A stretch of 64,000 nt of DNA from Massilia sp. H-1 (GTDB lineage Bacteria; Pseudomonadota; Gammaproteobacteria; Burkholderiales; Burkholderiaceae_D): NCBI GenBank assembly GCA_024703915.1, contig CP087969.1, forward strand, positions 620,001 through 684,000. The letters run 5' to 3'. The translations under genes were made by a program, and so were the position numbers. Below are positions 48,349 to 63,530 of this stretch, one piece after another. The notes beneath the pieces were generated by a model that was not told the origin of the DNA, made no database searches, and saw nothing but the letters and a program-made list of their open reading frames with translations. The stretch's first letter is position 1. Each line of letters opens with the position of its first letter.

Positions 48349-48956
48349 TTAGAAATTTTGGCCCACACATTTGCCGCATACGACAACAGCTTGGTCTTTG
48401 CATGGATAGTCTGAATATGATAATTGAGCGCAGTGTTGTGCAAAAAGGTTAAGCATAACCTTAATCTTAATATCGGGGCTACTTACGTCACCCTCAAAAG
48501 ATAGATATATTAACCGTTCAGACATGCAACGGTCAAAATAGGGGTGAAGTAATCTCTCTCCGTTTATCTGTCCTTTGTAGTTCTTCCCTTTATGCAGATT
48601 GCAATCACAAGCGGATACCAAATTAGGAATAAAGAACGAAAATTCCGGATAATCTTCTTTCGGAATAAAATGGTCTACTTGCCCAGGAGGTTTAGTACTA
48701 CCGCACAACGGACAAACATCAGTTCGCACCTCATTCCGAATTTTAGCGATATATTCAAGTCCTTTGATTTCACCTTCGTAATGCGTAATTAACGACTTCT
48801 TGAGATTGTCAGGCATGATGACAGGTTCTGGGATTTCCCACGGGTCTCCACCAACTGCGACATATTTTCCATAGGAAGCTGAAATCACGGGTAACGAATC
48901 TAACAAGAACCCAAAACTTCCAAGTGCTGATTTTCAGAAAGTGTTTTTAATACCAT
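48349..48956 (-). CDS. HNH endonuclease, PtuB-like
   Basis: Nuclease of about 200 residues. The zinc and catalytic core reads CPLCGSTKPPGQVDHFIPKEDYPEFSFF then NLVSACDCNLHKGK, a classic C..C, DH, N, H pattern. The start MVLKTLSENQHLEVLGS at 48954-48956 needs one base repair near 48908 and places the ATG 38 bases after the ATPase gene. The pairing of ATPase then HNH protein, in this order, is the architecture of Septu (PtuA-PtuB), so anti-phage nucleic-acid cleavage is the likely job. It lacks any recognised extra domain. Confidence 0.75.
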
Positions 48957-48994
48957 GAAATCATCAACGCCCAGGTTGGGCAAGCCTGAATAAA

Positions 48995-50220
48995 TCATTT
49001 TGTGAACTTGCTTTCGCCATGAAGAAATTGGCGGATGTGAAGTACGGCTTCGCTAGATAACTCAGCTTTCAACATAGTTTCCCAATCCGTGTACTTCTCG
49101 GGATTTACTCGGATTTCATTCGCAATTTTTTTTACATTTTCGATAACCAATTCATCGGCGAAAATAGATGCGGATATCGACCCCACATCCGCCCCCAGCG
49201 TCTTCAACCGGGGTTTCATCACGTTTATTGCGCCACTTGACTCATGATAGACAATTTTTACCTGCTCTGCAGGAACTTCACGAACCACATAAGGTGAGTG
49301 AGTCGCCACGATGGCAACCGAGTCGGTAGCACTCAATATAGAATCCAACATCGCCATGAATTGGGAAATAAGTTGAGGATGCAAATGGGTTTCTGGCTCA
49401 TCAATCAAAACGAGAGAGCCGCCGACCACGTTATAGGATAATTGCGCTGCCAATCGTAAGAATGAAAGTTGCCCACTACTAAGTGGCACCAAGCGGTCAT
49501 CTTGTGACATTAAAATGACCCCAGAAGCCTCCAGTGCCCTTCTTGCCTCAAGGCGTACATGTTCGCTGGAGGCCGTTAGGTCCTCCAGCGCAACAGTGCG
49601 GCTCGTTGGACTCTCGGCGCCCAACTCCGCAGCAGCGATTACTAATGCTGATACGGGAAGTACATTACTAATCGCGCTTGAAGAGTGTCCACCTGGGCCG
49701 TTCCAACTCGTCGCTAGACCAATGGCTGCGCGAAAGCCGATATAGCGTTTCAGGGAGTGAGTCCTCTATCGGGGAGTCATCTTTAAAACTGGTTGAAAGC
49801 TTGAGATAGTCGACCTGAGAATTTTCAGGCTTTCGGGGGAACGTGTATTCAGTCTCCCCAGGAGTGCGAATGGCTATTAATCGGGGAAACCTTTGGCAAG
49901 AAATGATAGCAAAACTGGTCCAAGTAGCGTTCACAAATATGGTTCAGCATGCGACTTTTGCCAACGCCATTTTTCCCAATCAAGACGGAAATGCGTTGTG
50001 GAAATAACCCTTCATGACTAAATTCGAACACCAAGGGAACACTTGAAGAAAATCCAGAGAAGCCAGAAAGCGGTAGTTCCAATTTGACTGGGGCCAACGA
50101 AATTTTTTCCCACGATATTCCTAAGAGAGCTTCGAATCCATGATGAAAGGCGTTATATCCGCCTTCGGACCGTATCAACGAAAAGACAAAAATATCTGAT
50201 TTTATTGCGCTCTCGCGCAT
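48995..50220 (-). CDS. AAA/ABC-type ATPase, PtuA-like
   Basis: About 405 residues. Walker A is LIGKNGVGKSRMLNHI (near 49940-49990). The ABC-signature-like VPLSSGQLSFLRLA lies near 49470. Walker B is LVLIDEPETHLHPQL and the switch His is in VATHSPYVVRE. This combination marks the OLD/RecF-like ATPases of Septu and similar systems. It starts MRESAIKSDIFVFSLIRSEGG. Breaks at about 49870-49930 and 49630-49680. Its start overlaps the upstream small gene by 19 bases, and it precedes the HNH gene, so the three are one operon. Confidence 0.75.
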
Positions 50221-50665: not shown

Positions 50666-52996
50666 TCAGCTAAGCTTCAAGAAGTCTCCAGGTCCGATGT
50701 ACTCGAAGGTGAATTTGTCTGCGGCTCCTGTTGCGGTCGATAAAAATATTCCCTGTGCATTAGGATTCGGATGCCACGTTAGCACTCCGACCTCACGATA
50801 ATCAGCAGTGAATACACATCTCTCTTTGCCAGGTCCGCCGCCAACGTGTAGTGGCGTGCCGGGTGCCATCAGGTGCGCCAAACCAAGACACCGGCCCATC
50901 GTATTTTACGGACGTCCACGCCTTCTTTGCCTTGATTTCTTTAGCGCTAACGAAGTCAACCCAGATGCGATGCGATTCTTTAGTTGGCCAATCCGGAAGC
51001 ATTGCTAACGCTTGGACCTCATCGGAAGCGAGCCATTCGGCGAGCCTGCTCGGGGAGTCGAAAGTGGCCCCGGTTCGTTCTACGGCTTGAATCGCGCCTA
51101 ATCGGGGAAGCAAATCCCGCCTGTATAAGTAGCGCGGCAGGCATCAGCATGGTACCCGTCTCAAGCGCCATGACCACGTTCATGCGCGTGAAAAATCAGA
51201 TAGATTCATTACTGTATCGGCGCGATTCTTCATCAAAGTGCGCGGCGTGGCGAACCCGAACCGCTTCCATAGCCCACGGAATATTGAATACAAATGCCTG
51301 TTCGATAAAAGTAATGACTGCATCACTATCACCACCGACAATGGTTGTCAGCGGTTTCCCATGCAACCACGCAGTCATTATTTCAGGCCAATTATCGACT
51401 ACTTTTTTGGGTGCAAAAGGAGCAATCAAGAGCGCAATTTCAGCAAATTTAATTATTGCCTCTACTGCCATTTCAGGATGTCCGGTAGCGATTCCTACGT
51501 TAGCAATGAGAAGCAATTGCTCTAATTCCGCAGCATGTTGGTCGAGTGCTTTACCTGTAGCCAAGCCAACCCCGGCCAAGAAATACCCACGACGCTCTGT
51601 AGGGGTCGTGTTGCCCCAAATATGTTTCGTGCGAGCGACTAGGCCGCCAATCAAAGCCTTCTGAGTGCTTTCGTTTTTTTCGTGCCAACCGCCTGTAGAA
51701 TAACGAAGACTTCAGAATTTGGTCGAGCGCAGATTCAATATCATCTTCCGATACGTCCGACTCTCCAAACAAGCTAAAAATCGCTGTATCGAGACTCATC
51801 AAATGGGATGGCCATTTGGCCTTTTCTGCCTCATGAACCGTCAGTTTTTCGTTCGTCAAGATAGGAAACTCCCAAGCAGCCTGTCCAGCAACATATTCTA
51901 AGAGCGTACTTGGCTGCGTCCCCAATTTCTTACTCATGCGACTAAGCAGTGTGTAGATAAGCCGGAGCAAACCACTTTCCATCTCTCGGCCGCTTTGATT
52001 GCCAATCAACGCTTTCCACGCAACGCCACGTTTGACGGGTTCATCAAACATCGGATACAGCACAAGGCCTTCGATGTCGATGTAAGCACGGCCAGCGCGG
52101 CCAACTACATTCCTGAACTCGGCAATATCTATGCTCGCACCGTTCCTGACGTGGCCGTGAAAGATAAGACTGGTTGCGGCCAAATTGAGCCCCTGAGCAA
52201 GCGTCGGCGACGAGACTGTAATCTTCAATACGCCGTCACGAAGCAACCGCTCAACTTCCTTTCTATACGGAGTTGGAAGCGCGCCATGGTGGACTGCGAC
52301 ACCAAGTCTGAGGCATTTAAGTATTTCGTGGTCCGCTCCGAACCATTCTGCTCCGACAGCTAAAGCGGTTTGCCGCCATAAAATTCCCGTCAAGCGCTTT
52401 GCTAATAGTTTCAAGCAGCGGATTATCGAGGTCCTCCTCCCCCAGCAAATTGACCTCAGGCACTCCGGCCAGCGATGCTATCAGAGATTCATCGGAGCCA
52501 ATGCCTGAACTAAACCATCGTGATATGTCCAATGCTAGGCTGTCCAAATCCCGAAGCATTAGCTTGGCCAAGCATGCCTCCGAAATGGAGAAATTCAAGT
52601 TTCCAGTTCCTTGATGCAGGAGGGAAAATGCTCTGGCCGAGAAACGTCCGAGGTGATATGCCGCTGCAGCTATCAGTCGATGAAAGTCGCGTTCAGTGTC
52701 ATGCGCGCCCTTACCTATCACTGCCTCCACAGCTTCCCCGGCTACTTCGAAACCACGGCGTGCCAATGCCTGGTCGCCGCCAAGCTCAGCATAGCGTAGC
52801 GCGTGGCTCAACAACGAGTAGCCGTAAGCCAAAAGGTCTTCCGACAACCCGGCACTGAATTTTGGCGAGCCATTAGGAAGCTCACCATCTCGCCAAATGA
52901 TGGCCCTGGACTGCCCCGCGCCATCAATTTGTGGCGAAATCCCGGTTCCACAGCAGCTTCAATATTGGCTCGCAATTCTTCTAGGGTTACCGCCAT
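50666..52996 (-). CDS. HamB-like superfamily 2 helicase lacking the P-loop domain
   Basis: About 775 residues as reconstructed. The N-terminal part (SEDLLAYGYSLLSHALRYAELGGDQALARRGFEVAGEAVEAV) resembles the leading domain of Hachiman-type helicases. The second helicase lobe is clear: VAVHHGALP, LKITVSSPTLAQGLNLAATSLIFHG and FRNVVGRAGRAY (motifs IV, V, VI) at about 52300-52090. Between them, at about 52360, no Walker A and no DEAD/DEAH box exists: the first RecA domain is gone. Breaks at 52360, 51690, 51150, 50880 and 52850. Begins 48 bases after the hamA stop. ATP-driven action is therefore doubtful in this copy. Confidence 0.7.
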
Positions 52997-53044: not shown

Positions 53045-53761
53045 TCAACTTGTAGCGACATAACTCTGCTGCGTCTTGCCAACATAATTCGTCAAGTTAG
53101 TTGTCAGCAGTTTCGATGGATTGTTTCCAGAAAACGTAAACAGCATATGTGTCACTTGCGAAACCTTTAGGCCATCCTTTAGTAGGGCGTCGTCTAGCGC
53201 ATTGCGTAGTTCCACTTCAGCAGCACCGGTTAAGCGGTCAGCGACAAAAGAAATAGCATGGGCTGATGGCAAGTCTTTATTTGAATCCAATGCTGACCGA
53301 GCCTCTTCGATGACTGAGGTACTCATTGCCGCGCGACTCTTCACCTCGGCTTTCAGGACATTAAGTGTTCGTCCGGGCCCGTTCAAATTGAATGCAAGGA
53401 CGTCCTCACCACGCATGGACATGTTGCGATGGTCCTTCCACCTGAGGCGCTTGATTCCTAGCTTGAATGCAGTCCCTTCAATGACATAGGCGTTGCAGAG
53501 TACCTCGCCGAGGTCTCCTGACCGAATCTGCTTCGACGTGGGAAGTTTTTCTTGAACGTAGTTGGCGACCGCAGGGCGGCCAAGTCTATTGAGAAGGCCC
53601 GACAAACGGTCGGGGTCAGCGTAGTAGCCAGGTAGAGCTTTTGCCAAAACACCTACTGCATGAGCCCGCTTGACGGGGTCCACCTTTAGCAATTTCAACA
53701 TGTGTGTCGAGACCGGGGTATCCGTCGGCGCACACCACCTGAGAATTTGCTCATGGACCAC
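53045..53761 (-). CDS. HamA-like DUF1837 nuclease of Hachiman-type defence
   Basis: An intact 238-residue protein. The nuclease pattern of the DUF1837/HamA family is visible: IRSGDLGEVLCNAYVIEG (Glu), MRGEDVLAFNLNG (Asp) and NVLKAEVKSR (E-x-K), a PD-(D/E)xK arrangement. A GTG start is used, with AAGGAG a few bases upstream; no ATG is available in frame. It is directly followed by a HamB-like helicase gene on the same strand, which is the Hachiman order. DUF1837 membership is from my recognition of the motif and operon, not a search. Confidence 0.72.
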   Translation of the reverse strand: MVHEQILRWCAPTDTPVSTHMLKLLKVDPVKRAHAVGVLAKALPGYYADPDRLSGLLNRLGRPAVANYVQEKLPTSKQIRSGDLGEVLCNAYVIEGTAFKLGIKRLRWKDHRNMSMRGEDVLAFNLNGPGRTLNVLKAEVKSRAAMSTSVIEEARSALDSNKDLPSAHAISFVADRLTGAAEVELRNALDDALLKDGLKVSQVTHMLFTFSGNNPSKLLTTNLTNYVGKTQQSYVATS

Positions 53762-54163
53762 AGCCTCCTTACGTTGGCTATGTGCAAGTGCTCATAGCAA
53801 AGTTCTATATTGGAATTTTTTCTTAGTAAGAATGGGTGTTAATAAGCTGGTGGCCCATTCCCATTGGAATCAACAGGTTAGCACCTGATTCGTTGCGGCG
53901 CATCAATTAATTGAGGCCGACCAGCCTTCGATTCATCAAAATAACTCCCCGTCAACCGCGCCTTTCACCGGTATCCACACGCCAGCCATCCTCGAGCTTC
54001 GCCACGATTCATAGCGCTATGTACTCGACATTAATTGTTGCCATCCAGCAGTTGCTCATGCAAAGTGATGGATTACCATCATTTTCAATACTGGCAATAT
54101 TCGTCTTTGAAAACATTGGAGGCAACGCCTCCGACAGTCGGACAGCTTCATAACAGGAAACTA
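53762..54163. other. Divergent intergenic region between hamA and the NTPase gene
   Basis: About 400 bases separate two divergently transcribed defence operons and probably hold both promoters. It is AT-rich, with an ATTAATTGAGG stretch around 53905. Short frames here have no similarity I can recognise. AACAGGAAACTA just before 54164 supplies the ribosome site of the NTPase gene. Confidence 0.45.
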
Positions 54164-57100
54164 ATGGACTACTTCAATTTGAACCGCCAATTCGTCGAGC
54201 GAGAAAACTACAACGCGGACGAACTCATTGCCGCCGAGGTGAGCGGCAAACGTGCGAATTGGTCGAAATTATTGGAGTGCCGTGCCTGTGTGGTTGTCAT
54301 GCCTAAGCAAACTTTGGGAAAACTACCGAGATGCAACATCGGGCGGCGCAAATGCGTGACGTCTCGGATACCGCGGTATTCATCGCACTTCGTAGGTTAG
54401 CCGACCGCAAGAGCATCGAAAAGACGCTTACGGCCGAAGACTTGCAGATATACAACGCATGGAAATTGTCTACGTCTGGGACATTGACCCTATTTGTTGA
54501 TTCGCTTGACGAGGCCGCGGCCGGACAGAAAGACAGCATCGAATACCTCGTTAGCGACCTAGCAGATGTAGTGACCTGGCCTAACGAGCGAGTCAAATGG
54601 GTATTCTCTACTCGGCCCGCAGTATTGACCCCGGCAGTCTTTGCCAAGCTTTCTGAAATTCTTGGACAACCCACATCAACCGTCCCCTCGACCCAATCGA
54701 CTGGTTCCATCGACGACGGGGCTTCGACGATTTCCACCACGGATGTTGCTGGCGGTCCCCAACCATACAAACTACGCATTTTTTCGATGGCGCCGCTAGA
54801 GCGCAAACAGGCTGAGACCTACCTGAATGGACGTCACCCTACCCTCGCTGCAGGCGAGCTTTTGAGTTTGGCTCATGCGAACGGGGACTCGCCGGTTTCA
54901 CGAGGAGTCCAGGCGGTCTGGACATCCTGGCAAACATTGATATGCTTTCCAACCCGCCGGATTCCCTGACTGGAAGTATTCAATCGGGTCATGAGCGCAA
55001 TTCAAATATTGCACGGGGCCGATTCCCGTTTGGCTGATGCCGGGCAAATCTCCCCTGCGTTGCTCGGCAGGGCAGCACAGAGACTCGCATCTGCTTCCCA
55101 AGTGTGCCAGTTGGTGAACATTGAGATGCCCGTGGCCACGTTGGACATCCCCGAAAAAGCACTCTCAGCTAGGCTGATTGCGACGCCCATGTTAAATGAG
55201 GCCGCAATCAACCAGCTTCTGAACTCACAACTATGCATCGACGTTGGCTTTCATCAGGTAAAAATTTACCCTGACGAGCTAGCACCGTTCTTGGCAGCTC
55301 AGCGATTGGCTTCTCTCGTGGAATCTGCCGACCAAGCACTGAAGCTCGTTCAAAACTTTACATGGGTTGCCCCCAGTGGTGAACAGGGTGTCCATCGGGA
55401 GTACCTGCCTCTGATGGGTTGGCTTGCCACTTTGAACCCGCATTGCCGGGCCGTCATCCTCCGCTACGACCCTCAGGCATTAGCATTCTTCGGCGACCTT
55501 CGAAACCCCTCCGTGCCGTTGGCTGACGCCCAAGAAGCGCTGACGCAAAGTATTCGACGGATTGTGGAAATGGGCGACCACCCGGGTAGGGGCATATACA
55601 CCTTGACGTCTGAAAATCATTGGCAAGCCGGACCTGCGCGCTTGGCGCCGCTGATTTCGAGCCTGTTCGATGAGTTTGGTGAGCACTACTGGGCCCACGA
55701 TGTCCTCATGGACATTGCGACTGCCTGCAAACTTGATGCGTTTCAGCGCAAAGATAATGCGTAGGCATTCACAACAGTATGTCCGCTTGCTCGAAGACCG
55801 TGACGATGTCCGATACCTTCTGGAACTCGGCAATGTGAAAGACCTGGCAGGCCTAGCCTCCGCAGTTAAGGCCAGCCAAACGGTGCGGGAAGGAACGGCT
55901 TCCTTACTTCTTGAAAGACTTGGATGGGCGCACTTTTCGCCATCGGAAGTTGCTCGGCTCATTGACAAACAGTTCTCGACGGGGAACGTGGTTTCAGCAT
56001 GGGCTACATACTGGAGTCCGGTAGTTTGCTGGACGCGGCTACCGATGAGCAACTCTACCAACTCTGTAGGGGCTTGGTGGCTCGCTGTTCACGGCTTCGC
56101 AAGTGCAACGAGCGCCGCGGTCACGACGACTCCCAAGCCGAGGACCGATTCGTTGAATCAGTCGTCGGCACCGTTGTTCAATTGCTCCACCGAACGAATA
56201 CGACAATCGCTCGAAAAGCCGCTCTCCTGTGTCTTGTGTTGCAACGTGTACTGTCAGAAGGGTATTTTAATTTCGCGGACAGAGGCGAATTTCGAAAGGC
56301 ACTTGAGGCGAACACGGTCGTACGGAGGACGCTGCTTGAACTGGTGGCAAGGCAATCGGGCTTGGATGACCATAACCTGCTTTTGTCCGTAATCAGGTAC
56401 AACCGCGTGCGGTTACGTGCCAGAGGATATTGCGTTTGTTGGTAGTGCCCGACTTTCCCGGGTTTATGCGGAGCATTTGGCGTTTGTGGCAGCGCAACCG
56501 CAGCAGCCAAAAAGCGCTCAGAAAACATCTCGGCAAGATAGGCTGACGATTGGCACTGGAAGCGAAGAAGTCACTGAAGAGGATGCGGAAGACCCTTAGC
56601 GATGGAACGGCAGCCCGTGGCCTTGAATGGGTTGCCGGGTGGCTGTTACAGACGAATCCGCACTCTCGTTATGGCGAGGTCAACTTCGAGATTTTCGAGC
56701 GTGAAGCCGGTAAGCAAATTGCCGATTCAGTTAGGCTGGGATTGAGTCAAGTTTGGCGAAAACAAGCCCCTCGTTTCGATGAGCAGCAGCCCAGGACAAC
56801 GTACCACATTGCCGCAGCAGGCTTGCAAGGGCTTCATCTTGACCTTGGGTTGGGCGACAACCTACCCAGCCTCACAGACGCCGAAATTCGGCGTGCCCTT
56901 CACTATGGAACCTTCGAAATCAATGGCTATCCGAAGTGGTTCTGGCCTTTAGTTGAGGCTCACCCGGTTATCGCCGCGTCTGAGCTGCAGTTGATTGCAA
57001 GCGAAGCCCCAAATGGTCCAGTCTCAACGGAGCATGCTGAAGAACTCTTCACCTCACTTGCTCAGGCGCCGACCGTGATTCGTGAGTCCTTGAGTCCATC

Positions 57101-58462
57101 GGCCTGGGCCTACTTGGCGAACGCCGGACCGTCCCACGAATATGTCTCAGATAAAATTCTTCAAACCGTGATGTCCTTTCCAGGGGCGATTTCGCGCGCC
57201 GATTTCGGGCGAATCACCATGAGCAAGCTGGAAGCAAGCCTTCAAAGAACCGCTGCCCGATGACATGGATGTTGTACGCAACGCGCTTCGGGCTGAAGCT
57301 GTCCTGTGGGCGGGTCATTGGCTCACCAGTTACCCGACGGAGTTTCAGCAAGCCGTGAGCAGCTGGGGGCCAAGGAATCCTGCCTCCGTAAAAGCTTTTA
57401 TCAGTGAACTTGCAGGCACATTTCGGCCACGACCGAAATGCCGTACTGGCGAAAATTGCGCAGGAAAGTGATGCGGGCGTTCTGGTCCTGGAGGACATGT
57501 ATGCTTGGACGGTCTGGGCCGTGGACCCCACGAACGACATTAAGCGCCCAACCGGCATTGTGTACAGCTCAGGAGCGCGGGACAAGGCGCAGCACTTCCG
57601 TGATGGATTGATTGGCATCATTGCTTCCGCAAATTCGCAGAGCGCGTACGACGTGTTGGGGCGAATTCGTGACTCAGCGACAGATACCCTTCCCATGTAC
57701 CTCCGACGTGTTCAATTCGAACTTCATGAACGCCAGTTCATGCGCAATCCCCTTCCTCAAACTTGCTACGACCAGTTTGAACAAGATTTCCGAGCGCAAG
57801 TAACCGACTCATTGTCTTTCGCAATGTCAGTCCACTCCGACCTTCAGGCGCTGAAGTACGACATAGAGCGGGGCGAGCACAGTCTACGCAATTTCTTTAG
57901 CGCGCTAGATTTCAAGGCAGTAAATACGAAAGGTGCCGAGGGAGAAAAAGCAGGTCTTGCATTGGAAGCAGACTTCCAGCGCCTCTTGGCAAGTGAATTA
58001 AATCATCATGCTCGAGGACGTTATTCGGTTTCAGTCGAGTCGCATACGGCAGAGGCGAAGCGCCACGACGTCCTATGCAGCCGCAATGATTGGCGCGCCT
58101 CCATAGAGCTGAAGATGTCCGAGCGCTGGACTTTGGAGGAATACCTGGTTGCACTGGAGCGGCAGCTGGTCGGTCAATATATGCGCCATAACTTGGCTAC
58201 GACGGGCTTCCTAGTGATTGTATTGCAGGCTAAGAACAGAACCTGGAAGAATCCGACGACCGGAAAAATGATAGGCTTCGACGAATTATTGGCTATCCTT
58301 GCTGCGAAGGCCCAGGAGCTCGAAAGCAACGACCGGTCGCGTTACTTGAGAATCATCGGTATCGACGCAACTAAGCCGAACGATTTCCGAAAAGAGGCGA
58401 CGAAACAGAAACCTGCGCCGATTAAAAAGTCGCCCCCAGCAGCCAAAAAATCAGTCCGATGA
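54164..58462 (+). CDS. NACHT-like NTPase with C-terminal PD-(D/E)xK nuclease
   Basis: Reconstructed protein of about 1430 residues, the largest gene here. N-terminal NTPase: Walker A PANFGKTTEM (needs GCCGGC restored at 54301-54308), Walker B LTLFVDSLDEA near 54482 and sensor WVFSTRPAV near 54598, as in NACHT/STAND ATPases. A long helical middle (about 54900-57700) has no clear repeats of a named family. The C-terminus (about 57940-58200) carries LALEADFQRLLASEL, AKRHDVLCSR and ASIELKM, a PD-(D/E)xK nuclease triad; a Lys/Pro-rich tail follows. Breaks near 54890, 54970, 55765, 56000, 56415, 56590, 57250 and 57415. Its TGA overlaps the DUF4238 ATG. Confidence 0.75.
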
Positions 58463-59509
58463 GTGACCGCAAAAATCATCATTTCGTGCCGCAGTTCTAC
58501 TTCAGGCGTTTCTCAGCTGACGGTAAAAGTGTATGCGCCATGACTAAAGCGACAGGTCGGCTCATAGCCCAGGCGCCGATAAAGAGCCAAGCTAGCAAGA
58601 ACAACTTCTACGGGACTCCCGAAGTTGAGAATGTTCTCAGCGAAATCGAAGGCGAATGTAGCAAGACGTTGCGTACGCTCACGGACCTTGCCGACCCCGC
58701 AATGCTCGATAATGAAGATGTTTCCCGCTTGCTCCTGTACATCGCGTTGCAACGCTCGCGCACAATGAGCGCACGCATGAACGGCCAGAATTTTCAGGAC
58801 AAGATGGCGCGCTTGCAGTTAGAAGTGGAACTCAACAATAGCACCGAAATTGATGACGATACCAAGAAGTTGATGTTGGAAAATTTGGAGCACATAGGGG
58901 TTGACCCCGTGCAGGCGCAGCGACTTCAAATGAGCATAGCAGTCGAGGCCATGCCGCGCACTCGAAGACCTACACCCAATCATTCTGGACAACAAGACAA
59001 ATCGCCCTTTCATATTTGGTGACGCACCTGTCGTTTTTTACAACGCCTACTACAGAAACGTCAAACTTCGCGGTGTGCTTGGATTATCCACTCCAGGACT
59101 ATTGGTAGTCCTCCCCCTCAGTGCTGAAAAATGCCTGATGCTTGTCGACTCAGCATGCTACAAAATTCAAAAAATACGAAACAACCGAGTACAACTCCGA
59201 GAATTTCACGATGTGGCGGCGCTTAACAAGCTCCAGCTTCACGCAGCTTCTAGCTGTATTTATTTTGGGGATTTTCAATATTCCCCCTATGTTTCGGAGA
59301 TTTGGCGGCAAGAGAAACAACGCTTTAGACCACATGCGGGTGTCGTCGTCGAAGCGCCGGGTGTCGATGCTTCTAACGGCGAGTCTCTCGGCGAGATTGT
59401 GCATGGGTTCGAACCGCAGTTGCCGTTTCTTTTCTCACTATCGTTTCTTCAACATACAGTCCTGGGAGATAAGGACTATCGCATAGGGCGCCACGAGGAC
59501 ATGTATTAG
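58459..59509 (+). CDS. DUF4238 domain protein
   Basis: About 350 residues. It opens with the family signature MSDRKNHHFVPQFYFRRFSADG, followed by VCAMTKATGRLIAQAPIKSQASKNNFYGTPEVENVLSEIE. After a break near 58960 it continues HPIILDNKTNRPFIFGDAPVVFYNAYY to the C-terminus IGRHEDMY. The ATGA overlap with the NTPase-nuclease gene means the two are translated together. DUF4238 proteins have no established biochemical function; location suggests a partner in defence, possibly a sensor or regulator. Confidence 0.72.
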
Positions 59510-61664: not shown

Positions 61665-61710
61665 TTCGTTTTCTACTATTAAACGCCCCGACGCGGGCCG
61701 CGCTGCCTTA

Positions 61711-61731
61711 CTGGCTGTTCCTGGCCGATTG
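61711..61731. repeat. Cassette-junction short repeat, copy 2 of 3
   Basis: CTGGCTGTTCCTGGCCGATTG, downstream of the KptA stop. Related copies lie at 60562-60579 and 63548-63569, each 9 to 40 bases after the stop of a minus-strand gene in this cluster. The shared core is CTG.TTC.TGGCCGAT. Confidence 0.5.
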
Positions 61732-61770
61732 TACGCGGTCGCATTGCTGGCGTCACGGCAACTGCCGCCC

Positions 61771-62326
61771 TTATTCCAGCAAGCGAATGAATTGTGGTGG
61801 GACTGCCTTTGTTAGCCACACACCGTTCTGAGAAAGGTAGAACCGGTGTCCTGCAGGAACTCATCGCTTTCGCGTTGACAATCAATATAATCGGCCTACC
61901 GTGTCGCGCACCGACTTGTTCCACGACATTCGCATCACTCGAGAGATGTACTTGTAGCCGCTGAGCTGAATGCAAACCGCTCATCTGAATTGATGCCAGA
62001 AAACGGCTTGCTGTGCCATGGTAGAGTCGGTCTGGCGGGACTGTTGGCTCAAGACCAAGCGAAACGGCTATTGAATGACCTTGATTAGCTCGAATTCGTT
62101 GGCCGTCTTGACTCAATGAAAAGCGCTGCTTATCGCTCGTTGCCACGATGCCTTCGATTGTCCGCTGGTCAAGAGGTTGTCCAGCGGCGTTCGCCAGATT
62201 CACCAATTCATCTATTGACGCCCACCCCTCACTATCAAGGGAAAGTCCAATTTGCTCTGGCTTATGGCGAAGAACTAGACTCAGGAATTTGCTGCTCGAA
62301 TCAAGCCCTGCCTTTCCTTTACTCAT
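61771..62326 (-). CDS. kptA: RNA 2'-phosphotransferase (Tpt1/KptA)
   Basis: Transfers the 2'-phosphate of RNA to NAD+, yielding ADP-ribose cyclic phosphate. The N-terminal domain SSKFLSLVLRHKPEQIGLSLDSEGW carries the catalytic Arg-His, followed by RANQGHS and LYHGTA with the remaining active-site residues. After a break near 61850 the end is HRFYLSQNGVWLTKAVPPQFIRLLE. Start MSKGKAG overlaps the stop of the preceding gene. Bacteria rarely need this repair, so its place among immunity-like genes is notable. Confidence 0.88.
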
Positions 62327-62657
62327 CGTTCCACTCACGATGTTCTGGCAGCATGACCCGTTCTATCCATTCTGCCAGACTGTTATAGATGTCTGTTCCT
62401 GGCCAAGGCAAGCGCTCCTGGCTTTTTGACCAAGTTAGGTGCACATCTGCCACACGACCGCTTCCATCTAATAGCTCAAAAAGCGCGTCATCGCCGTTGC
62501 CTCTAGCAAGTAATTTCACGGGGACGCCGTAAAGTATGTGGCCAGATGGCACTTCGATTGCCAACTGCGCTTGCCAGCTTTGGCTAAGTTCCTGGCCTAA
62601 TTTTTCGACTGACCACCACGGTTCTAACCATTCCATAACTTCGCTCGCTGACGTCAC
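62319..62657 (-). CDS. Hypothetical protein, immunity-like
   Basis: A 112-residue frame with a GTG start: TSASEVMEWLEPWWSVEKLGQELSQ, then GHILYGVPVKLLARGNGDDALFELLDGSGRVADVHLTW. This small-barrel pattern is common in immunity proteins. It overlaps the kptA start and follows the next gene by three bases, so the three are co-transcribed. No family name is offered. Confidence 0.6.
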   Translation of the reverse strand: MTSASEVMEWLEPWWSVEKLGQELSQSWQAQLAIEVPSGHILYGVPVKLLARGNGDDALFELLDGSGRVADVHLTWSKSQERLPWPGTDIYNSLAEWIERVMLPEHREWNDE

Positions 62658-63038: not shown

Positions 63039-63530
63039 TCACCAAAATTTCCATCTGGGTTTGTTGGTCGGAGGAGTGTCCCCACGAGCTTTGAGTTGCC
63101 GGTGCAATTGGCCCATCAAGCTCTGATAGACCAACATTGAGAAGACCTGCAAATTTTCGACTTTCATGTCGCCGCCCAAGTAGGGATGCACTCGCCAGCC
63201 TATGCGTTCGGCCTCGTCCGGCAGTAGGTTATTTCCAGCAGCAATAGGTTGCCAGTCTGCGCAAAACTCTTCGTTTATCCATTCTGCTGACCTTTTCATT
63301 GCATTGTAATGTTCGGAGTTGGTTGCAATTTGAACGTAGTCTCCCTCTAGCACAGACAGTCGCCAAATTGACCCATCAGGCGAGCCAAATACCCAGTCGG
63401 CCATGACAGTGAGGAAAAGAGGCGTATCTCGCTCGGGAACTAACCATGTCCATTCCGCTAAAAGTGCGGGAAGGTCATAACGGTCGGCCGGAACCATAAA
63501 AGCTCGTTCGTTCATAGGGTCTTTGCTCAT
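63039..63530 (-). CDS. DUF1851 (Tdi1-type) immunity protein
   Basis: An intact 163-residue protein. It contains WVFGSPDGSIWRLSVLEGDYVQIATNSEHYNAMKR and the C-terminal family pattern IGWRVHPYLGGDMKVENLQVFSMLVYQSLMGQLHRQLK. This is the pattern of DUF1851, the domain of Tdi1, the immunity protein of the T6SS effector Tde1. Named from recognition of this pattern. No matching toxin is visible in the window. Confidence 0.78.
   Translation of the reverse strand: MSKDPMNERAFMVPADRYDLPALLAEWTWLVPERDTPLFLTVMADWVFGSPDGSIWRLSVLEGDYVQIATNSEHYNAMKRSAEWINEEFCADWQPIAAGNNLLPDEAERIGWRVHPYLGGDMKVENLQVFSMLVYQSLMGQLHRQLKARGDTPPTNKPRWKFW

Follow-up and report, generated by a model that had tools for sequence, protein, structure and literature searches.

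The NACHT-nuclease gene and its reading frames

The 64,000 bp stretch of Massilia sp. H-1 DNA analysed here, termed the window, represents positions 620001–684000 of a single 5.8 Mb contig in a genome of 48% completeness. At 54164–58462 (+) it contains the coding sequence for a NACHT protein of about 1430 residues with a C-terminal PD-(D/E)xK domain, and this is followed on the same strand by a DUF4238 gene at 58459–59509. The NACHT-nuclease gene is HyoA-like. Its extent is given by tblastn with proteins of two relatives, Duganella lactea (L116) and Rugamonas rubra (L119), and by ordered matches to the NCBIfam HyoA model (NF058534). The protein is a divergent member of a NACHT-first, nuclease-last kind that is already represented by HyoA and EruA. 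A preliminary description, made from the sequence alone, had treated the two genes as a candidate new defence pair.

A single 1430-codon open reading frame (ORF) is absent at 54164–58462, and all three frames are interrupted by stop codons. Alignment to the intact D. lactea protein (1449 amino acids) yields seven segments over three frames, and alignment to the R. rubra protein yields eight. The ORF pieces are 54331–54969, 54991–55764, 55670–56392, 55999–56445, 56550–57263 and 57404–58462, and the longest encode 352, 257, 240, 237 and 212 amino acids. The Walker A motif at 54307–54330 does not share a frame with the start codon at 54164. The preliminary description bridged these breaks without mentioning them, although it nonetheless advised resequencing. 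Thus its protein of about 1430 residues holds as a coding sequence with recognizable motifs, but not as one ORF.

Such a gene might be a true pseudogene that has decayed in this strain. The seven to eight frame segments and the stops in all frames would be expected of one, and the six or seven frame switches in 4.3 kb are slightly more than the four found in 4.1 kb of rpoB. However, rpoB of the same, 48% complete genome is itself divided into five pieces in three frames, and the breaks therefore appear to be a feature of the assembly. Every catalytic motif is retained as well, and in two stretches of the gene the differences from relatives are mostly at silent sites. The proportions of synonymous (pS) and nonsynonymous (pN) differences are 0.77 and 0.20–0.25 for the nuclease piece; for 54991–55752 they are 0.87 and 0.17, and for an intact pair 0.82 and 0.23. 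The pN/pS ratio of about 0.2–0.33 is similar to that of the intact pair (0.29), although only the direction of this result counts because synonymous sites are saturated. Decay is very improbable, and the pseudogene reading was rejected on the rpoB breaks and the excess of silent changes. An assembly error is the likelier cause, with rpoB as the one housekeeping gene compared. Promoter and terminator scans gave numbers close to those of shuffled sequence (4 vs. 3.5 and 9 vs. 6.5, respectively).

Domain order and relation to HyoA and EruA

At the N-terminus, the Walker A motif ANFGKTTE (54307–54330, +) is read from the DNA, and its GK(T/S) residues are conserved in relatives. The Walker B motif LFVDSLDEA (54490–54516, +) is in the ORF 54331–54969 and is also conserved in the alignment; a STRPAV motif is present as well. 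Both Walker motifs are N-terminal in 29 of 30 aligned proteins, and the thirtieth (L060) is without its start. Eight long ORFs that have no BLAST match to the D. lactea gene (L068, the same gene as L116) were excluded from this alignment. In the intact D. lactea protein, Walker A occupies residues 48–55, and a motif this close to residue 50 leaves no space for an effector domain ahead of it.

An AlphaFold2 model of residues 1–700 of the D. lactea protein has a predicted local distance difference test score (pLDDT) of 74.9. Foldseek places NLRC4 at rank 1 (E 1.6e-6). With the structure comparison tool VIA, ranks 1–22 are all NLR-family proteins (NLRC4, NLRP1, NLRP3, NOD2 and others), with Z values of 10.2–11.4, root-mean-square deviations (rmsd) of 4.0–8.6 and 250–368 aligned residues; the tool warns that a Z under about 13 may reflect an arrangement common to helical models. 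The Walker motifs, together with the predicted nucleotide-binding and helical domain fold, support a NACHT/STAND NTPase at the N-terminus. The middle region, at 55751–57423 (+) as placed by the segments aligned to D. lactea, has the lowest identity to that protein (34–55%). In the D. lactea model the stretch of about residues 410–700 is helical, and the middle region is presumed to be an alpha-helical sensor.

A PD-(D/E)xK nuclease domain is assigned to 57935–58405 (+). Its signature in the piece that starts at 57404 consists of E188, D222, E235-x-K237, Q254 and Y259; E188, D222, E235 and K237 are conserved in at least 90% of alignment A3 (11 rows, two of them partial). The D...ExK motif appears in 29 of the 30 aligned proteins, and the remaining one, the R. 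rubra sequence L071, ends before it. RHDVL and ELK are found in the window gene, as are all the other motifs that had been listed for it (ANFGKTTE, VDSLDEA and STRPAV). A model of the 352-residue C-terminal piece shows, after residue 178, a helix, three strands, a helix, a strand, a helix and a strand (helix 178–203; strands 208–211, 223–227 and 230–238; helix 244–259; strand 265–274). BamHI heads its VIA list (Z 8.3, rmsd 4.6, 148 aligned), followed by matches that include OkrAI, Can2, Card1, McrC, HamA and Shedu. About 43 of the 50 VIA rows are what we take to be PD-(D/E)xK-fold proteins. The Z values are middling, and these matches count only jointly with the motif. A sequence search of solved structures gave chance-level matches only. 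A D...ExK site on a predicted core fold supports a C-terminal PD-(D/E)xK nuclease. The proposed order of a NACHT-like NTPase first and a nuclease last draws support from the conserved motifs, the C-terminal model of the window protein and the N-terminal model from D. lactea.

The nuclease is followed by a basic tail at 58373–58459 (+), with 10 K/R and 2 D/E in 29 residues. Basic tails are also found in clade members L068, L117 (Acidovorax kalamii), L118, L120, L124 (R. rubra) and L125 (Ramlibacter alkalitolerans). In four other relatives an H-NS C-terminal domain motif replaces the basic tail: Massilia rhizosphaerae (L122, the same gene as L069), L070, Limnobacter humi (L121) and Cupriavidus sp. 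LEh25 (L123). These four constitute one subclade with 100/100 support, and M. rhizosphaerae, the one among them that was scanned, matches Pfam Histone_HNS at 7.3e-11. Many other HyoA-like proteins end a few residues past the nuclease, and some have basic tails. A basic tail or an H-NS DNA-binding domain after the nuclease suggests that DNA is its target. The H-NS-tailed subclade might be the part that a specialist would not expect.

Four window pieces match the HyoA model collinearly, at profile positions 56–222, 285–459, 849–1080 and 1124–1429 of 1430, with E values of 3.8e-14, 1.6e-13, 4.9e-26 and 1.1e-50 in that order. Together they total about 364 bits; the broken gene is not scorable as a whole. 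Profile positions 460–848 are not covered by window pieces, and 54035–54400, 55670–56392 and 55999–56445 give no HyoA match. The ordered profile match and the conserved residues led to rejection of chance motifs as an explanation. Pfam gives no above-threshold match for the NACHT pieces of the window, and PADLOC gives none for any NACHT protein scanned, whether window piece or relative.

A profile search of genome contigs found ten loci with 44–71% identity, in D. lactea, A. kalamii, Paucibacter, R. rubra, a proteobacterial metagenome-assembled genome, L. humi, M. rhizosphaerae, Cupriavidus and Ramlibacter. A scan of such contigs with the window piece alone found no relative, a search of viral contigs with profile A2 found none, and E. 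coli genomes gave no DNA match. Uninterrupted relatives are 1423–1478 amino acids long. In Cupriavidus two ORFs make up the gene, and in Ramlibacter the ORF starts upstream of the likely start. R. rubra accounts for two of the ten loci (L119/L071 and L124/L104), which seem to be parts of a single gene broken at contig ends; one contig has transposase-like ORFs, identified by eye, at its ends. The gene looks as if it were split by an insertion element.

A tree built from 36 nuclease domains groups the window protein with nine relatives as one clade (10 rows, support 100/100) on a stem of 1.61; the tree is midpoint-rooted with a tool warning of long branches, and it places this clade only provisionally among the other HyoA-like groups. 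Five relatives (L116, L118, L120, L122 and L125) score 416.5–487.6 bits against HyoA, below its cut-off of 1200, and 58.4–112.1 bits against EruA (NF058535), far below its cut-off of 1000. The window clade resembles HyoA in its length of about 1430 residues, NACHT-first and PD-(D/E)xK-last order, motif order and patchy spread. It differs in its scores (416–488 bits vs. 1200), its separate, fully supported position on a long stem and its basic or H-NS tails. EruA, like HyoA a 'NACHT domain-containing antiphage protein' by its model name, matches weakly along the protein and is far more distant than HyoA. Proteins above the HyoA cut-off (L051, L052, L053, L010, L007 and L012), when aligned, likewise have NACHT first and PD-(D/E)xK last. 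The preliminary description knew of no named system with this pair of genes, but HyoA and EruA both have names in NCBIfam as NACHT antiphage proteins. On sequence comparison, the window protein's clade stands as a sister family of HyoA and EruA, and the protein is not of a nameless kind.

Searched by tblastn against plasmids, the nuclease piece gives 36 records, with 23–32% identity among the 20 matches listed. Of eight plasmid records taken, seven have an annotated gene of 1432–1477 amino acids, and the eighth, from Burkholderia glumae, has an IS5-like transposase gene inside the homologous gene. Six plasmid-encoded proteins scanned with NCBIfam all match HyoA at 972–1724 bits, three of them above the cut-off. 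At E 0.001, with weak and partial matches counted, the HyoA model matches in 40 of the 392 family genomes, 9 of them over the cut-off, and in 37 of the 398 phylum genomes, 7 of them over it. Among 14 control genomes, only Methanosarcina acetivorans has a match, which is below cut-off. These counts, which include weak fragments, show that bacterial NLR-like proteins with the effector last are widespread, and the window protein belongs to a sister branch that has DNA-binding tails.

The DUF4238 gene

The second gene (58459–59509, +) matches Pfam DUF4238 (PF14022) at 1.3e-24 (87.6 bits vs. a threshold of 27). As described, it is a DUF4238 gene, but it is split into two frames, 58459–59022 and 59075–59509, and the second piece (0.0069) is below the cut-off. 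A genome search with DUF4238 recovers the two window pieces at 1e-23 and 5.4e-10. The reported ATGA overlap is present: the stop and start codons of the two genes share 58459–58462 (+), as read from the sequence and from tblastn.

A DUF4238 protein by itself is reported to protect against T7 (PMC9122126). This single-gene defence, for which PADLOC has the model DUF4238-Pers, resembles the second window gene in its Pfam domain. It differs in being one lone gene, and the two frame-broken window pieces have no PADLOC match at E 1 or better. Of two intact DUF4238 proteins scanned with this PADLOC model, that of L092 matches at 4.8e-8 and that of L114 does not.

An ATGA overlap on the same strand usually implies co-translation, and the two genes could form one system in which DUF4238 acts as a second effector or as a regulator through coupled translation. 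The ability of a DUF4238 protein to defend alone (PMC9122126) speaks for this. So does a second overlap: on a plasmid of Rhizobium sp. NXC24 (L114:2506–7128), the 3' end of gajB, where Gabija gajAB ends, shares 14 bases with a DUF4238 gene. DUF4238 may now and then be added on behind a defence operon.

The distribution of the two genes argues against a single system. The ten close-relative genomes, those of the ten profile-search loci plus G172, were searched for PF14022. It adjoins the NACHT gene in none of the ten. Two of the first nine, Duganella and Cupriavidus, have PF14022 on a different contig from the NACHT gene, and G172 has no PF14022. A further set of 32 HyoA/EruA-like genomes comprises the window's own and 31 others; it includes four of the ten close relatives (three of the nine), and it was drawn from 40 genomes by dropping 8 whose HyoA matches are weak or partial. 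PF14022 is present in 6 of the 32 and adjoins the NACHT gene only in the window's own genome. A phylum sample of 31 (from 37, with two already tested and four weak ones dropped) has PF14022 in seven, the nearest about 12 kb from the NACHT gene on the same contig, with no adjacent pair. Where the contigs differ (G107, G376, G405, G610, G496, G757 and the Cupriavidus genome G811), non-adjacency was judged from coordinates, with contig ends unchecked in G610, G496, G757 and G811. In G107 both genes are at contig ends, in an orientation that excludes a nuclease-then-DUF4238 order.

Locus searches in both directions agree. In 50 partly overlapping loci that surround HyoA/EruA-like genes, a DUF4238 profile built here detects no DUF4238 gene; as a control, it finds the DUF4238 gene of L101, which was not in the build, and misses the frame-broken one of L103, a locus that also gave no ORF in the DUF4238 motif search. 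In 18 other DUF4238 loci there is no HyoA/EruA-like sequence, although L096 has only 190 bases upstream.

Non-conservation of DUF4238 neighbours had been set beforehand as the finding that would speak against the proposed pair, and it is what the genomes show. A new named pair was rejected for this reason, and a two-gene system is improbable. An ATGA overlap in a single genome is no evidence of a system. Most likely, the DUF4238 gene is a separate defence gene stacked behind the NACHT-nuclease gene.

Proposed function and genomic surroundings

The NACHT-nuclease protein is probably a single-protein antiphage NACHT nuclease of the sister family to HyoA and EruA, and a mechanism can be proposed. 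The NACHT NTPase (residues about 1–500) would keep the protein ADP-bound and resting, and the helical middle part would sense a phage product. Exchange for ATP would then lead to oligomerization, which would bring the C-terminal PD-(D/E)xK domains together. With the basic DNA-binding tail, these domains would cut DNA, that of the phage and probably also that of the host, in an abortive response. Homology, domain order, the nuclease signature, predicted folds, basic or H-NS tails and the excess of silent changes form the observed basis of this proposal. The antiphage role, the trigger, oligomerization and a substrate of DNA, not RNA, are suggested by the names HyoA and EruA and by the biology of bacterial NACHT (bNACHT) proteins.

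The closest described parallels are bNACHT25 and bNACHT32, clade 6 bacterial NACHT proteins that combine NACHT with a PD-(D/E)xK nuclease; they are reported to degrade DNA on activation (PMC12169576). Their nuclease is N-terminal (PMC12169576), whereas that of the window protein is C-terminal. More generally, bNACHT proteins as usually drawn have the effector first and the sensor last, in contrast to the window kind, which is without an N-terminal effector and has the nuclease at the C-terminus.

Several observations weigh against this interpretation. Pfam NACHT has no match in the D. lactea protein and, among five HyoA-like relatives, sub-threshold matches in only two (0.0034 and 0.013). For the nuclease, the VIA Z values are, as the tool itself cautions, middling, the model is moderate (pLDDT 72.8) and plain Foldseek finds no match under E 0.001. 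The HyoA score is far under the equivalog cut-off, and function may therefore have drifted. The names HyoA and EruA are taken from NCBIfam; a literature search found neither the publication behind them nor an antiphage paper that uses them, EruA in one E. coli regulator paper is something different, and both are absent from the main text of DefensePredictor (PMC13092281). In addition, we know of no member of the window clade that has been tested.

H-NS is the host's silencer of foreign DNA. Perhaps the H-NS or basic tail guides the nuclease to foreign DNA that is AT-rich; selectivity would then come from the tail and not from abortive killing. The H-NS domain of the M. rhizosphaerae protein, its motif throughout one fully supported subclade and the basic tails of the remaining clade members inspected are in favour of this variant. 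On the other hand, the tails are variable and could merely aid DNA binding or solubility, and many HyoA-like proteins are almost without one. DNA guidance by the tail is rather unlikely on this balance. It is unlikelier still, and doubtful, that the clade is a third family of NACHT-first nucleases, next to HyoA and EruA, that is steered by its tail to AT-rich invading DNA and is translationally coupled here to a DUF4238 effector. A literature search for H-NS with NACHT nucleases in an antiphage context returned only PMC9122126, which mentions H-NS and NACHT once each. The H-NS fusion poses a testable question: does an immune nuclease borrow the host's recognition of foreign DNA?

The surroundings of the gene pair are in part why the antiphage interpretation is favoured: these are Hachiman, a PtuA/PDC-M01A-like ATPase and a weak HNH match. 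The Hachiman-like neighbour noted earlier is confirmed. HamA, divergent from the pair and outside it, is at 53045–53761 (−) (PADLOC 1.5e-83, Pfam 7.5e-9), and a frame-broken piece of the HamB helicase is at 51551–52414 (−) (PADLOC 4.4e-105). At 48349–50220 (−), the weak HNH match is beside the PDC-M01A/PtuA-like ATPase, which is frame-broken. This is possibly a Septu-like system, and since it adjoins Hachiman, the window looks like a defence island.

Past the DUF4238 gene, at 61679–62338 and 63039–63530 (−), are a KptA/Tpt1 RNA 2'-phosphotransferase match (1.3e-38) and a sub-threshold match to a Tdi1-type immunity protein of the type VI secretion system. Neighbours in relatives are of other kinds. 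In R. alkalitolerans (L125:8203–12270), a type I DRT reverse transcriptase (PADLOC Drt1a, 1343 bits) is directly 3' of the HyoA-like gene on the same strand. In D. lactea (L116:8424–9998, −), an LA2681-like HEPN protein gene (Pfam 3e-60) is convergent with the closest HyoA-like gene.

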